Of a stretch of 12,643 nt of DNA, positions 3,044 to 9,696 are shown one piece after another. The notes below the pieces were generated by a model that was not told the origin of the DNA, made no database searches, and worked only from the letters and a program-made list of their open reading frames with translations. This DNA comes from Methanobacteriota archaeon (GTDB lineage: Archaea; Thermoplasmatota; Poseidoniia; Poseidoniales; Thalassarchaeaceae), in contig PAUH01000044.1 of the NCBI GenBank assembly GCA_002712645.1, positions 1 through 12,643 on the forward strand, in the 5' to 3' direction. Numbering within the stretch: position 1 is the stretch's first letter; the number at the start of each line of letters is the position of its first letter. Made by a program: the position numbers and the translations under genes.

Positions 3044-3048
3044 GCTCA
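3041..3048. other. Palindrome formed by two facing stop codons
   Basis: TGAGCTCA at 3041-3048 is a perfect 8-base palindrome. It contains the EF-2 stop (TGA, 3041-3043) and, on the other strand, the stop of the isomerase-prenyltransferase gene (3046-3048). The two genes meet tail to tail with two bases between them, so each transcript must end inside the other gene. I see no separate stem-loop plus T-tract here. Confidence 0.7.
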
Positions 3049-4716
3049 TTGAACTCTTACTATCTGGAAGTCCGTGATGGTCCTCAATATGTCCAAGCTG
3101 GGCGATTGGTCAATTTTGTCAAGCGCCTGATGTGCCGCCTCATGGTAATCGAGCGCCCTCTTCCACGCATAATCCAAGCTTCCAGAATCTTCCAAATCCC
3201 TAATCGCTTTACCAATCATACTTTCAGATGCGTCTTCATTGCCGAAGGCTGCTTTGAAATTGGGCATATCTCTGCCACTTGATAGCGCATGAATCGCAAT
3301 CAGTGTCCTCTTACCGCTAGAGATGTCTGAACCAGAAGTCTTTCCTAGAGTTTCCGTATCTGACCTAAGATCAATAACATCATCCATTATTTGGAAGCAT
3401 AGACCAAGCATCAAACCCCACTCCGACATAGTCTCTACCATTTCATTCGAAGCTCCAGAAATTATTGCCCCAGTCTTGGCGCACATTTGGAACATTGCAC
3501 TTGTTTTACCTTCAATCATGGCGAGATAATCTTCTTCTGATACGACATCTCTACCTTCGAACTCGAAATCCTCTTGTTGCCCCTCTGCCACTCTTCGAAC
3601 CATTTCTCCAATATTCTTCACAAGCAGCCGTAATTGGTCATCACTAATGTGATTGGAATCTGCAAGCATTTCAAAACTCAAAGCGAGCATGGCATCTCCA
3701 GCATTGATAGCAGTAGAATCGTCAAATTCTACATGCACAGCCTTGAGGCCCCTTCTAACAGGGTCTTGATCCATGATGTCATCATGCACAAGAGTGAAAT
3801 TGTGTATGATTTCTATACAAGCGCCAAGAACGTAGTGTCCTTCATGCCCTTTCCCAATCGCTTCGCCAACCAGAATGGGAAGCATAGCTCTGAGACGCTT
3901 CCCGCCACCTGTGAACAAGTGACTCATTGCTGCATGTAGTCTTGATTGGCTAATCTTTGAAAGCCCCTTCATGATATGCTCCTCAGCATGCTCTCTATGC
4001 TCCGATAATACTGAAAGAATCTGACTGGAGTCATCAGGATATAGTGACATTCTTCCGAATTGAAGGATTTCATCAGACTTGCCCCCCATTGCCTCCTCTA
4101 CCGATTTCCCATCTGGCAGATACGCACTCACGATGGCCTTGAACCAGGGGGCTACCATCTCTTCAGACCAACGTCCGGTTTGAGCAACCATACTTCCCAC
4201 TTCATCAAGATCTAACCATTCGAACGCTTCAACCTCGTTTAGATTAGGCTTGATATCAGCATCACCCCTGACCATTAGGACGTGATCGATTTCTCTTTCT
4301 ATCCATTCAGAGTTCCATCTTGAACTGTATTTGAATTTACCAATTTGCCTAAAATCCCATTTCTCTGATATTTCTGAGGGTATTCCGAGCTCTTGCTCCA
4401 TTTTTCTTATGGCTGCAGAACGAACCGGCTCTTCTGCCACTGCTTCTCCATCCGATACCATGAGTGGATGACTGCAGCAGGTATTTGCCCATATGGATGG
4501 GAATGTGATCTTCGTCGATGCTCGCTTTTGTACTAATAATCGATCGTTCGTATCGAATAGTAAGACGCTAAAGGCCCTATGGAGAGCACCCTCGCCATGG
4601 TGGCACTCTTTCTTAGAAGCGCCACCAATCGGCTTGTCGTCCTCGTCAACTAGGATGCACAACTCTGACATCATGGATCTCTGGTCAGAGTCCAGCCCTT
4701 CGAGTACATCCCGCAT
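3046..4716 (-). CDS. Fusion of type I isopentenyl-diphosphate isomerase and geranylgeranyl-diphosphate synthase
   Basis: One unbroken frame of 556 codons encodes two complete enzymes. Residues about 15-200 are a Nudix-fold type I IPP isomerase, which interconverts IPP and DMAPP. It has the ANTCCSHP motif with catalytic Cys81 and metal-ligand-type His83, His39/His40 and His46 upstream, and WIEREIDHV with Glu140 and catalytic Glu142. Residues about 230-556 are a trans-prenyltransferase with GGGKRLR (270-276), the first aspartate-rich motif DDIMDQDPVRRG (Asp312, 313, 316), EGKTSAMF, and the second motif DDVID (Asp445, 446, 449). Phe307, five residues before the first motif, is the feature that limits chain length in archaeal GGPP synthase, so C20 product is inferred. 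ATG 4716 is preferred; an in-frame TTG at 4728 would add four residues. The gene lies 19 bases after the isopentenyl phosphate kinase gene, likely as one operon. Most archaea are known for the unrelated FMN-dependent type II isomerase. Confidence 0.93.
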   Translation of the reverse strand: MRDVLEGLDSDQRSMMSELCILVDEDDKPIGGASKKECHHGEGALHRAFSVLLFDTNDRLLVQKRASTKITFPSIWANTCCSHPLMVSDGEAVAEEPVRSAAIRKMEQELGIPSEISEKWDFRQIGKFKYSSRWNSEWIEREIDHVLMVRGDADIKPNLNEVEAFEWLDLDEVGSMVAQTGRWSEEMVAPWFKAIVSAYLPDGKSVEEAMGGKSDEILQFGRMSLYPDDSSQILSVLSEHREHAEEHIMKGLSKISQSRLHAAMSHLFTGGGKRLRAMLPILVGEAIGKGHEGHYVLGACIEIIHNFTLVHDDIMDQDPVRRGLKAVHVEFDDSTAINAGDAMLALSFEMLADSNHISDDQLRLLVKNIGEMVRRVAEGQQEDFEFEGRDVVSEEDYLAMIEGKTSAMFQMCAKTGAIISGASNEMVETMSEWGLMLGLCFQIMDDVIDLRSDTETLGKTSGSDISSGKRTLIAIHALSSGRDMPNFKAAFGNEDASESMIGKAIRDLEDSGSLDYAWKRALDYHEAAHQALDKIDQSPSLDILRTITDFQIVRVQ

Positions 4717-4735
4717 GATTCCTTCCAACCATTAG

Positions 4736-5536
4736 TCATTCATCACTTTTGGCCCTCTCAAAAAGAGTTCCGATAAAACGCTCTCCGATTAGTAGATCGT
4801 GAAGATTAGCAGGGTCCAGACCATTCACGAAGGTGACCAATGGAACGTTTTTGGAAATCCTCGAAGCAACTTCGACCTTCAGTGCCATACCGCCTGTGAC
4901 ATCAGTTAACTCGTTGATAGAAGTCTCATAAGACGTCGATGAAGTCCAAACTGGTATCATCTGGGAATCCTTGTTTATTGGGTCCTTATCGTACAGCCCG
5001 TCTATGCCGTCTAACAAGAAGATGACTTTCTCTACTTCTGGAAGTTCAGTGGAGAGCCTCTCCATGAGGTGATCGCCGGATAGAATGCCAAACTCTCGAT
5101 CCCCAGCAACATCAACTACATCGCCAAATGTCACATGCACGTATCCATGTTCTTCGAATCTTCTGATATCTCCCTTGAATTTAGGGCCAGTACCATTAGC
5201 CCACTCCCTCGGGGGGTGGCATCGGCATCTAATTCCATGACTCTCAAGAATAGATACCACTGAGCTATTCAACTCATTCATGGATTTCCTTACCGTTTCC
5301 TTTGCTCGATTTTGCTCTTCCTCTCTACCGGACACACGTCCCCTGGAAAGGTCCCCTGACTTAGCGTCTATATGGCCAAAAGAACCTGCTCCATGTACGA
5401 TTATGAGGTCCATTCCTGAATTTACCATGTTGGATAGTATTGGTGCGATAGCCGATATTGTATCTGGTCTGAACACTTTTCTTGACTCCTTTTCGGTAAT
5501 CAGAGCCCCTCCAAATTTGATTATGGTCCGTCCCAC
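4736..5536 (-). CDS. ipk: Isopentenyl phosphate kinase
   Basis: Amino-acid-kinase-fold enzyme that phosphorylates isopentenyl phosphate to IPP with ATP, the last step of the archaeal alternative mevalonate pathway. Seen directly, counting from GTG 5536 (266 residues, the usual family length): the N-terminal nucleotide-binding strand IIKFGGALITEK with Lys7 and Lys16; VHGAGSFGH, whose last residue His55 aligns with the phosphate-contacting His60 of the Methanocaldococcus enzyme; KGDIRRF and HVTFGDVVD in the middle; FGILSGDHL; and DVTGGMALKVEVASRI near the C-terminus. The frame remains open to a TTG at 5608, but those 24 extra residues have no family counterpart. GTG 5548 is another option. The stop is followed 19 bases later by the isomerase-GGPP synthase start, so the two genes are probably co-transcribed and perform consecutive steps. 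The upstream gap of roughly 78 bases is shared with a divergent zinc-ribbon gene. Confidence 0.92.
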   Translation of the reverse strand: MGRTIIKFGGALITEKESRKVFRPDTISAIAPILSNMVNSGMDLIIVHGAGSFGHIDAKSGDLSRGRVSGREEEQNRAKETVRKSMNELNSSVVSILESHGIRCRCHPPREWANGTGPKFKGDIRRFEEHGYVHVTFGDVVDVAGDREFGILSGDHLMERLSTELPEVEKVIFLLDGIDGLYDKDPINKDSQMIPVWTSSTSYETSINELTDVTGGMALKVEVASRISKNVPLVTFVNGLDPANLHDLLIGERFIGTLFERAKSDE

Positions 5537-5614
5537 GATTGATGTCACGTTAAGTGATGCATTTGAGTGCGCCGTCGACCACAGGTTCTTCCGTCCTCGT
5601 TCGTGCAAGCTGTC

Positions 5615-7878: not shown

Positions 7879-9696
7879 TCAATTTTCACAGAAGGGATAA
7901 CTCTCAGCCATCGGCGGTAAGAAGAGGTCCTCACATGACCGATCGACTATTGAAAGACCCAATGTGGACGCGGCATCAGTCGAGACGGTCACCGCTTGCA
8001 TGGACACAGGGCTTGGGACATAATCTTCCCCTGTTTGACTCAAGAAGAGGGAAATCCCATCGCCCGCTGGTACGACTACGTCCATCCCGAAAAACTCCAT
8101 CTTTGCAATTACAGTGCTCCCAGGTGCCAAGATCTCTCCCTCCTTCCCCCCTGAATGGAATCTGAGGTCCATCACAGCATGCCCTAGATGTAGGCCGTCA
8201 GAAGATCGCTGCATCTCTACAAAGAGATGGCCAGATGTCGAGAACAGTGATATCTGCGCTTCGATATGGAATGTTGGGGTTCCAACTATGCGAGTATCTT
8301 CTTCGAATTCAGGGCAGGAGAAGTGTGATTGCGTGCTCGAACCTATGACTGCGCTTCCGAAGTAGTCGCATTCATCCATTCCAATCATTAGCCATTCAAC
8401 ATCTTCGGGGGGGTAGGTGGCTTCAACTCTCCAACCACCCATGTTATCCTGAACCTCGGCGATCAGCCGTGGTTGCGGCCCCACATCCCTCAGGTAGAAG
8501 TCAAACCACTCGAGGAGATCATCTCCCCAATCCCATCGCAGAGTGTAGGGGTAGGCCTCGCCTCCCCTCCCGCTCGAGAGGCTGGAATGCCCGTCATCGC
8601 GATCAGGATAATCGTGCGCCCACTGACCATAAAGGCCCTTTACGTCAAATCCTGCATCGATAGCCATCTGATGCGTTGGAAATGCCATGTGAGGGTCAAC
8701 ATTCCAATCCTGTAGTCCATGGATGATGTAGATTGAACCACCGTACATTTCTAGAGCACGGGTTAGAAAATGACGCTCCTCCCAGTAGTCCGAGCCCACC
8801 CATCCCAGATTATCCCCCGTCATGTAAGCTGCTGGACCTGCATAATATCCTTCGAGATAACCCTCGCAAGCATTCTCAATATCGCCGCTATCGCCATCCA
8901 GTCCGAAAGATCCGTAGACACCATTGTGCATAATGGCGCCACGAGCCTCCATGCTCCCGTTCCTCCACATTAGATCATGCACCCCTATCAAGCCAGACAT
9001 TGGGACTATGGTGGTGAGATATTCTGAACCAGAGGCAGCAGCGTTCCATGGCGTGCTCCCATCATATGACTTCCCTATCGCAGCAACACGGCCATTCGAC
9101 CATGCCTGCGTCCCGAGCCAGTCAATAGCGCCCTTGATGCCGGACTGCTCGTCATGCCCCATCAAATCCATGCAATGATTTGATTCTCCTGTACCGAAGA
9201 CAGAAACTTGAGCGACTGCAAAACCGTGTTGAACGAAATTTTCGATCAAGAACCGGCCAAGACGATCCGCAGGCGTCAGTGCATCTACATCCCCATCATC
9301 GTAATAGGGTCCGATTTCTGTTATTACAGGAATCTTACACTCGTCCGGAATTGTTTCCGAGTCCCACTCGCATCCCTCTATCAGAGGCATCCAGAGTCCA
9401 AGATGGACCTCAGCCCCCCCAGTGACTCCAGCCCCACCATCAGAAGCATCGATCTCGGGGATTTCGACGTAGATTGAACGAACAAAGTCAGTCTCATACG
9501 TACCATTCCTCGATACTCGTGAGAACACATCATCAGTTCTATACTCCATCCCATGCCTATCTTCCACGGGTGGAAGCCAATGCCCCTGATTCTCTTCCAA
9601 TGTGTCTCCCTCTGAACCGAAGCATCCAGCTAAGGGTGCAGAAAAGAATGCTAGGACTAGTAAAATTGCATTAACCCTCTTCACGTTGAACAGCAT
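7879..9696 (-). CDS. Secreted lipoprotein hydrolase of the S15/CocE family (X-Pro dipeptidyl-peptidase-like)
   Basis: A 605-residue serine hydrolase carried outside the cell on a lipid anchor. Seen directly: a signal peptide with a basic start, a hydrophobic stretch (residues about 9-22) and lipobox LAGC ending at Cys25, followed by an acidic linker. The alpha/beta-hydrolase domain has GPYYDD (oxyanion-hole tyrosine region, about 129-134), nucleophile elbow IGKSYDGS with Ser210, HGLQDWNVD with Asp330, and GQWAHDYP with His361. The C-terminal 170 or so residues are beta-rich, as in the jelly-roll domain of X-Pro dipeptidyl-peptidases. Several cysteines (109, 120, 175, 277) could form disulfides outside the cell. 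Family members cleave Xaa-Pro dipeptides or esters, and the substrate here cannot be told from sequence. ATG 9696 has a strong AGGAGGT site lying inside the last codons of the upstream membrane-protein gene, so the two are coupled. Confidence 0.9.
   Translation of the reverse strand: MLFNVKRVNAILLVLAFFSAPLAGCFGSEGDTLEENQGHWLPPVEDRHGMEYRTDDVFSRVSRNGTYETDFVRSIYVEIPEIDASDGGAGVTGGAEVHLGLWMPLIEGCEWDSETIPDECKIPVITEIGPYYDDGDVDALTPADRLGRFLIENFVQHGFAVAQVSVFGTGESNHCMDLMGHDEQSGIKGAIDWLGTQAWSNGRVAAIGKSYDGSTPWNAAASGSEYLTTIVPMSGLIGVHDLMWRNGSMEARGAIMHNGVYGSFGLDGDSGDIENACEGYLEGYYAGPAAYMTGDNLGWVGSDYWEERHFLTRALEMYGGSIYIIHGLQDWNVDPHMAFPTHQMAIDAGFDVKGLYGQWAHDYPDRDDGHSSLSSGRGGEAYPYTLRWDWGDDLLEWFDFYLRDVGPQPRLIAEVQDNMGGWRVEATYPPEDVEWLMIGMDECDYFGSAVIGSSTQSHFSCPEFEEDTRIVGTPTFHIEAQISLFSTSGHLFVEMQRSSDGLHLGHAVMDLRFHSGGKEGEILAPGSTVIAKMEFFGMDVVVPAGDGISLFLSQTGEDYVPSPVSMQAVTVSTDAASTLGLSIVDRSCEDLFLPPMAESYPFCEN

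Follow-up and report, generated by a model that had tools for sequence, protein, structure and literature searches.

The window, by which we mean the whole stretch of 12,643 nucleotides analyzed here (contig PAUH01000044.1 of an archaeon of the order Poseidoniales, or Marine Group II), carries on its minus strand a gene that joins a type I (Nudix) IPP isomerase, IDI1, to a protein resembling GGPP synthases, with a frame for an isopentenyl phosphate kinase next to it (Table 1). As an open reading frame, the fused gene extends without interruption from position 4728 to position 3046 and comprises 560 codons when read from a TTG. We dropped this TTG as the start because a relative that is 93% identical (L003) carries a TGA at codon 3, between the TTG and the ATG, and the ATG at 4716 is therefore the better start. 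A preliminary description of the locus had used this ATG, and the frame, coordinates, and residues that it gave all proved to be correct. Elsewhere in the window, positions 7879 to 9696 of the minus strand encode an S15/CocE-type hydrolase, whose N-terminus resembles a lipoprotein signal (LAGC) and which is probably exported.

Table 1. Features of the fused gene and its upstream neighbor, in window coordinates.
Feature	Coordinates	Strand	Details
IDI1::GGPP-synthase-like fusion gene	3046..4716	minus	556 aa + stop
Type I (Nudix) IPP isomerase domain	4132..4659	minus	Residues 20-195; TIGR02150 above cut-off; human IDI1 is the top isomerase structure
Cys81 codon	4474..4476	minus	Invariant in 44/44 aligned fusions and 79/79 rows
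Glu142 codon	4291..4293	minus	Invariant in 44/44 aligned fusions and 79/79 rows
Junction (isomerase end + linker)	4021..4131	minus	Residues 196-232; predicted strand at 217-223
In-frame ATG in linker	4048..4050	minus	Met in 7/79 rows; no conserved start
Polyprenyl synthetase domain	3199..3942	minus	Residues 259-506; fold about 228-556
First Asp-rich motif, DDIMD	3769..3783	minus	Residues 312-316; Phe307 five residues ahead
Second Asp-rich motif, DDVID	3370..3384	minus	Residues 445-449
Isopentenyl phosphate kinase frame	4736..5608	minus	Directly upstream of the fusion; start codon uncertain; NF040647 160.8 bits, cut-off 120

Two domains in one frame

Profile searches recover both halves of the protein. 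Pfam reports NUDIX (49.2 bits) and polyprenyl_synt (224.1 bits, cut-off 27), both above cut-off; these are the only two Pfam domains on the fusion, a squalene synthase domain being absent, and the same pair was found in all 44 members of an alignment of fusions. The isomerase half also scores above the cut-offs of TIGR02150 (IPP_isom_1; 152.3 bits, cut-off 105.8) and PRK03759 (143.7 bits, cut-off 127). The synthase half falls below the cut-off of every NCBIfam equivalog model that it matched, including the best of them, IdsA (NF040698; 270.5 bits, cut-off 468), and GGPP_syn (NF041003; 246.3 bits, cut-off 500). Therefore, we filed it as a trans-prenyl synthase and treat GGPP as its predicted product.

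Residue conservation was read from the alignment of 44 fusions and, separately, from 79 distinct rows drawn from the 119 fused frames on the fetched loci. Cys81, Glu140, Glu142, Asp312, Asp313, Asp316, Asp445, and Asp446 (numbering of the 556-residue protein) are invariant in all 44 aligned fusions, and Asp449 is nearly so. Among the rows, the isomerase Cys, both Glu residues, and the three Asp residues of the first motif are present in 79 of 79, and the second motif, ahead of which two rows end, retains its first two Asp residues in 77 of 77 and its last in 76 of 77. We take the Cys and Glu residues to be catalytic and the Asp residues to be catalytic or metal-binding. The first motif has the form DDxxD without an insert, and the fifth position ahead of it (-5) is Phe in 78 of the 79 rows, the remaining row having an X.

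A structure model of the fusion (pLDDT 90.3, pTM 0.85) matches both human IDI1 and archaeal GGPP synthases. Note that the best 50 structures from one comparison were nearly all synthases, with archaeal GGPP synthases ranked highest by Z, and that the isomerase matches were taken from a separate comparison. The claim of the preliminary description that two complete and intact domains share one frame is thus backed by the frame, by the model, and by the conservation seen in both Poseidoniales families.

Distribution of the fused gene and the nature of its junction

Going by the matches listed for the 148 genomes searched in the family to which the window belongs, 119 have a frame that spans the linker, with 114 of these being essentially full length in one open frame and 5 partial; one genome of the full-length group (G004) has a single stop, which falls ahead of the ATG. 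The other 29 comprise two genomes in which the gene is apparently broken at contig ends, 25 with weaker matches only, and two with no match. Forty-one genomes were drawn from a second family, and the frame spans the linker in 38 (36 full length, 2 partial); the gene is broken over two contigs in one of the other three, one has only an isomerase piece near a contig end, and one has only a weaker synthase-like match. The fusion is also present in a one-contig genome (G148). Conservation across two Poseidoniales families rules out chance as the source of the fused frame.

The 27 of 148 family genomes that lack the fusion include some listed as more than 90% complete. The neighboring kinase lies upstream of the fusion in the same order in five of five loci (L176-L180). 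The kinase is also absent in 18 of the 20 fusion-less genomes tested (19 of the family's 27 and one of the second family). The two that retain it are G091 and G096, and in G091 it is located 179 bases from the contig start, such that the side on which the fusion would lie is cut off. Because the kinase is mostly gone as well, the absence of the fusion looks like an assembly gap rather than a splitting of the gene, with loss as a possibility. As an observation in its own right, the kinase-fusion segment is often absent as a unit and may assemble or bin badly.

The preliminary description had named separate genes with a stop codon between them in related genomes as the arrangement that would speak against a true fusion. 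No split isomerase and synthase genes were found within Poseidoniales among the matches listed, whereas a sister lineage does carry two such genes (six of six loci, see below).

Genome G023 has two distinct full-length fusions (C47:670-2337 and C29:8697-10349; 55% and 52% identical to that of the window), either because the assembly is mixed or because the gene is duplicated. The Poseidoniales fusion also occurs, at 84% identity, in a record whose title reads Pedosphaera sp. (L074), and this public genome may be mislabelled or mixed.

Although the sources are mostly metagenome draft assemblies, an error of sequencing or assembly is a highly improbable origin for the fused frame, given that both families repeat the architecture (119 of 148 assemblies in one, 38 of 41 in the other), as does the one-contig genome, with both Pfam domains present in every one of the at least 120 matches listed. 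A different concern is that the cell might make or keep two proteins from the fused frame, either because translation also starts internally near the linker or because proteases cut the product, in which case the fusion would be functionally meaningless. The linker is indeed highly variable, and the model assigns it some of its lowest confidence values (70-75 at residues 221-240). Moreover, a start-type codon (ATG, TTG, or GTG) occupies the alignment column of position 4050 in 30 of 79 rows, and TTG accounts for 19 of the 34 Leu codons in this column versus 20% in these genes overall. An ATG located 26 codons farther on occurs in 35 of 79 rows, and some Met is found within that stretch in 64 of 79. 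Nevertheless, we rejected the ATG at 4050, at which the preliminary description had placed the possible start of an independent synthase, as a conserved start, since 49 of 79 rows are without any start codon there. No single start is conserved, the frame is kept open across two families, and the linker itself retains a conserved Gly (75 of 79) and a conserved Ile or Val (78 of 79). We consider two separate products improbable on these grounds and regard the gene as probably encoding one fused protein.

Gene order in relatives and the origin of the two halves

Outside the class (Poseidoniia), the place of IDI1 is generally held by the type II isomerase, IDI2. Sixty-one genomes outside the class have both IDI2 and the synthase among the matches listed, and IDI2 lies directly upstream of the synthase on the same strand in 59 of them, with 0 to 240 bases between the matched parts. 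Three fetched loci from other Thermoplasmatota (L172, L173, and L174) have the isopentenyl phosphate kinase, IDI2, and GGPP synthase genes in a row (IPK-IDI2-GGPPS). These loci encode the same steps in the same order as in Poseidoniales, but they employ IDI2, an unrelated flavin isomerase, and keep three separate genes. IDI2 is above cut-off in none of the 87 class genomes in the draw, 81 of which have IDI1 above cut-off; the 205 genomes from outside the class include 187 with IDI2 and 5 with IDI1 above cut-off. A reason for replacing IDI2 may lie in its need for reduced flavin, which is awkward in oxic water.

The sister lineage has a separate IDI1 gene directly before the synthase in six of six genomes. 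The two genes overlap by 4 bases (ATGA) in five genomes and by 10 in one, and their frames always differ. We read these separate genes as the state that preceded the fusion. No kinase match was found on the stretch fetched for the six sister loci (L166-L171), unlike in Poseidoniales and in L172-L174. This lineage is probably 'Marine Group III', as suggested by one named match (P0240, 65% identical to its isomerase). The isomerase of the sister lineage ends in a tail of the form (I/V/L)H.MG (for example, DNKIHYMGNYE) that resembles the C-terminus of vertebrate IDI1 homologues (DHEKIHRM), and several fusions still carry a comparable tail within their linker (for example, EDVVHHIGDVSA in L135), where no stop precedes the synthase. 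This places the fusion at the former boundary between the two genes.

From the gene order and the junction present in these sequences, we infer a series of steps by which the fused gene may have arisen. The starting point would be the archaeal IPK-IDI2-GGPPS gene order, in which a type I isomerase would have taken the place of IDI2 at the same position. The isomerase stop would then have come to overlap the synthase start, and a frame change would have joined both genes at the overlap.

Long frames are also found around the synthases of other Thermoplasmatota (L081, G454, and others such as G462 and G339). The long frame of L081 (656 aa) was rejected as another fusion because its extra part is no isomerase by eye; this part seems to be G+C-rich DNA read out of frame. 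Likewise, G454 (L173) was set aside, as its synthase (338 aa) and the preceding frame (350 aa) are separate.

The two halves of the fusion have different affinities. In pairwise comparisons, the isomerase of the window reaches 152-160 bits against vertebrate IDI1, and the highest scores are 116 bits against IDI1 from other Thermoplasmatota, 105 bits against eight plasmid-borne bacterial IDI1 proteins, and 86 bits against haloarchaea-type proteins. In a tree whose eukaryotes are vertebrates only, whose bacteria are 8 plasmid records, and in which long branches were flagged, one side of a branch (100/100) gathers 15 rows from fusions, 10 from the sister lineage, and 7 from vertebrates. The best tree places the vertebrates inside the class, as neighbors of the sister lineage rather than of the class as a whole (96/83, 95/89). 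It does not unite the fused rows in a single clade, and a tree that does so is unrejected (p-AU 0.272). The grouping with vertebrates, the location of IDI1 at the usual site of IDI2, and the absence of IDI2 above cut-off from the class genomes in the draw support acquisition of the isomerase half by transfer, as had been suggested in the preliminary description. The transfer may have run in either direction, including from archaea to eukaryotes.

The five Thermoplasmatota from outside the class with IDI1 above cut-off (L161-L165) group with the bacterial rows (93/82), which suggests a separate gain of IDI1 in these genomes. Four of them have no IDI2 match and one has a weak match (E 4e-10); IDI1 has apparently replaced IDI2 there, probably in an event of its own. 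A passage of a review describes the archaeal IDI1 proteins of Haloarchaea and Thaumarchaeota as nested among bacteria (PMC3533463). The IDI1 of the class differs from these.

The synthase half falls among archaeal synthases, and the fused synthases form one group (100/100). Fused and sister-lineage synthases are not sisters in the best tree, and a tree joining them is unrejected (p-AU 0.193). In the phylum of G479, which we take to be Halobacteriota, 50 of 246 genomes have an IDI1-model match, none of them above cut-off, and no synthase match was found near these IDI1 matches on the stretch fetched for 30 loci. Among viral contigs, one stretch matched a pattern and encodes no relative of the fusion.

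Predicted function and relation to known proteins

We consider it very probable, judging from the frame, the motifs, and their conservation, that the Poseidoniales fusion is a bifunctional enzyme able to make GGPP from IPP alone. The N-terminal type I isomerase would convert IPP to DMAPP, and the C-terminal prenyltransferase would combine DMAPP with three IPP to give GGPP (C20), from which archaea build the side chains of their membrane lipids. The upstream isopentenyl phosphate kinase would supply the IPP. Fusion would fix both predicted activities at 1:1, and any benefit of this ratio, like the activities and the C20 product, is put forward here as a prediction.

The fusion is the one IDI1 found in its own genome, in which no IDI2 is above cut-off (best TIGR02151 match, E 3.3e-4); because the listed completeness is 86.7% and the contamination 6.3%, a missed isomerase gene is possible. 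Extra matches to the IDI1 model that fall below cut-off (52 to 76 bits) occur on G110 C79, G036 C11, G120 C34, G011 C12, G029 C18, and G013 C14, and G167 has a partial one, also below cut-off. These are probably other Nudix proteins, with a second isomerase in those genomes as a possibility. The genome of the window also encodes a second prenyl synthase (L175:2595-3740, on C17), which has Ala at position -5 of the first motif. An aromatic residue at this position and a motif without an insert are associated with a short (C20) product. The Phe of the fusion fits C20, and the Ala of the second synthase fits a longer product.

The main product of the synthase half is unlikely to be FPP, a mixture, or anything else but GGPP. 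Such an outcome would be in keeping with its best NCBIfam model, IdsA, which denotes a short-chain isoprenyl diphosphate synthase, and with its failure to reach any equivalog cut-off. However, the Phe and the uninterrupted DDxxD motif, the rank of archaeal GGPP synthases as the best structures by Z, and the requirement of archaeal lipids for C20 chains all point to GGPP. An arrangement of another kind, in which the DMAPP made by the isomerase passes through a closed channel to the attached synthase only, could be imagined because the active sites handle a shared metabolite one after the other and the model has a defined overall arrangement (pTM 0.85). Yet the second prenyl synthase needs an allylic primer, and the genome yielded no IPP isomerase besides the fusion. 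Since other uses of DMAPP need this isomerase, we hold a fully closed channel to be quite unlikely. If the bifunctional fusion is indeed the only isomerase, then all DMAPP for other uses would come from this protein or its products.

Each half resembles proteins that occur on their own. Human IDI1 (2dho/2icj/2i6k), the best isomerase match by sequence and structure, has its fold and the conserved Cys and Glu residues in common with the fusion but is free-standing, whereas the Poseidoniales isomerase is joined to a prenyltransferase in an archaeon. The archaeal GGPP synthases of Geoglobus acetivorans (5jfq) and Pyrococcus horikoshii (1wy0) are also free-standing, whereas here the synthase forms the C-terminal half of a larger protein and is below NCBIfam cut-offs. 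A passage on the diatom Phaeodactylum tricornutum describes PtIDISQS, a fusion of IDI and squalene synthase (PMC12168105), which is similar in that a single protein unites an IPP isomerase with an enzyme acting further along the isoprenoid pathway. It differs in belonging to a eukaryote and in its partner, because squalene synthase is no direct user of DMAPP.

A counterpart with the same domain order in one frame is encoded by plasmid CP123774.1 (L221:3004-4635), labelled Bacillus subtilis DK01. Its 543-aa 'idi' protein has NUDIX/IDI1 followed by polyprenyl synthetase and is 26% identical to the fusion over 498 columns. It was the only one of 507 matching plasmid records with a single place covering 80% of the query. 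The synthase half of this protein scores best with a Mycobacterium-named model, below its cut-off, and the neighboring genes encode a UbiA prenyltransferase, a polyprenyl synthetase, and an FAD monooxygenase. We regard it as probably an independent fusion, and the label of the record may be doubtful because the best models and matches are partly actinobacterial. On an Arthrobacter plasmid, the two halves were matched in two pieces at overlapping frames of 182 and 397 aa. Separately, E. coli plasmid CP056448.1 (L222:1514-3085) has idi directly after a gene for a 'class 1 isoprenoid biosynthesis enzyme' that has no Pfam match; other E. coli plasmids are similar, which suggests a small terpenoid locus.

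No published description of the Poseidoniales fusion was found in the open-licence literature among the matches listed. The words 'fusion' and 'fused' have no occurrence in the main text of PMC11052028, and PMC6461757 has none of isopentenyl, mevalonate, or geranylgeranyl. Fusion proteins of this group are already public under names that include isopentenyl-diphosphate delta-isomerase and geranylgeranyl diphosphate synthase type I. The statement of the preliminary description that no characterized protein of this architecture is known therefore agrees with the literature among the matches listed, but the architecture does recur on CP123774.1. The architecture itself is thus not unique, and the diatom IDI-squalene synthase is a relative in kind.

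These observations can be joined in a single reading that we offer tentatively and consider less likely than not. The class ancestor and the eukaryotic lineage may have shared a eukaryotic-type IDI1 by transfer in either direction, IDI1 may then have replaced IDI2 in the core lipid operon, and the fusion in Poseidoniales may have become a self-priming GGPP synthase, which would direct IPP into the chains of membrane lipids, and the only DMAPP source of the cell. If this is true, lipid-chain supply and all other isoprenoid use would be controlled at one protein.

The fusion would also provide a natural test of primer and extender enzymes fixed at 1:1 and possibly a single-gene GGPP source for engineering. 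Its history would show clearly how genes can be replaced and then fused step by step, because a living sister lineage retains the intermediate. The eukaryotic character of the isomerase is relevant to how archaea and eukaryotes have exchanged genes. For the organisms themselves, a fusion at the entry to lipid synthesis would count among the core traits shared across the order Poseidoniales.
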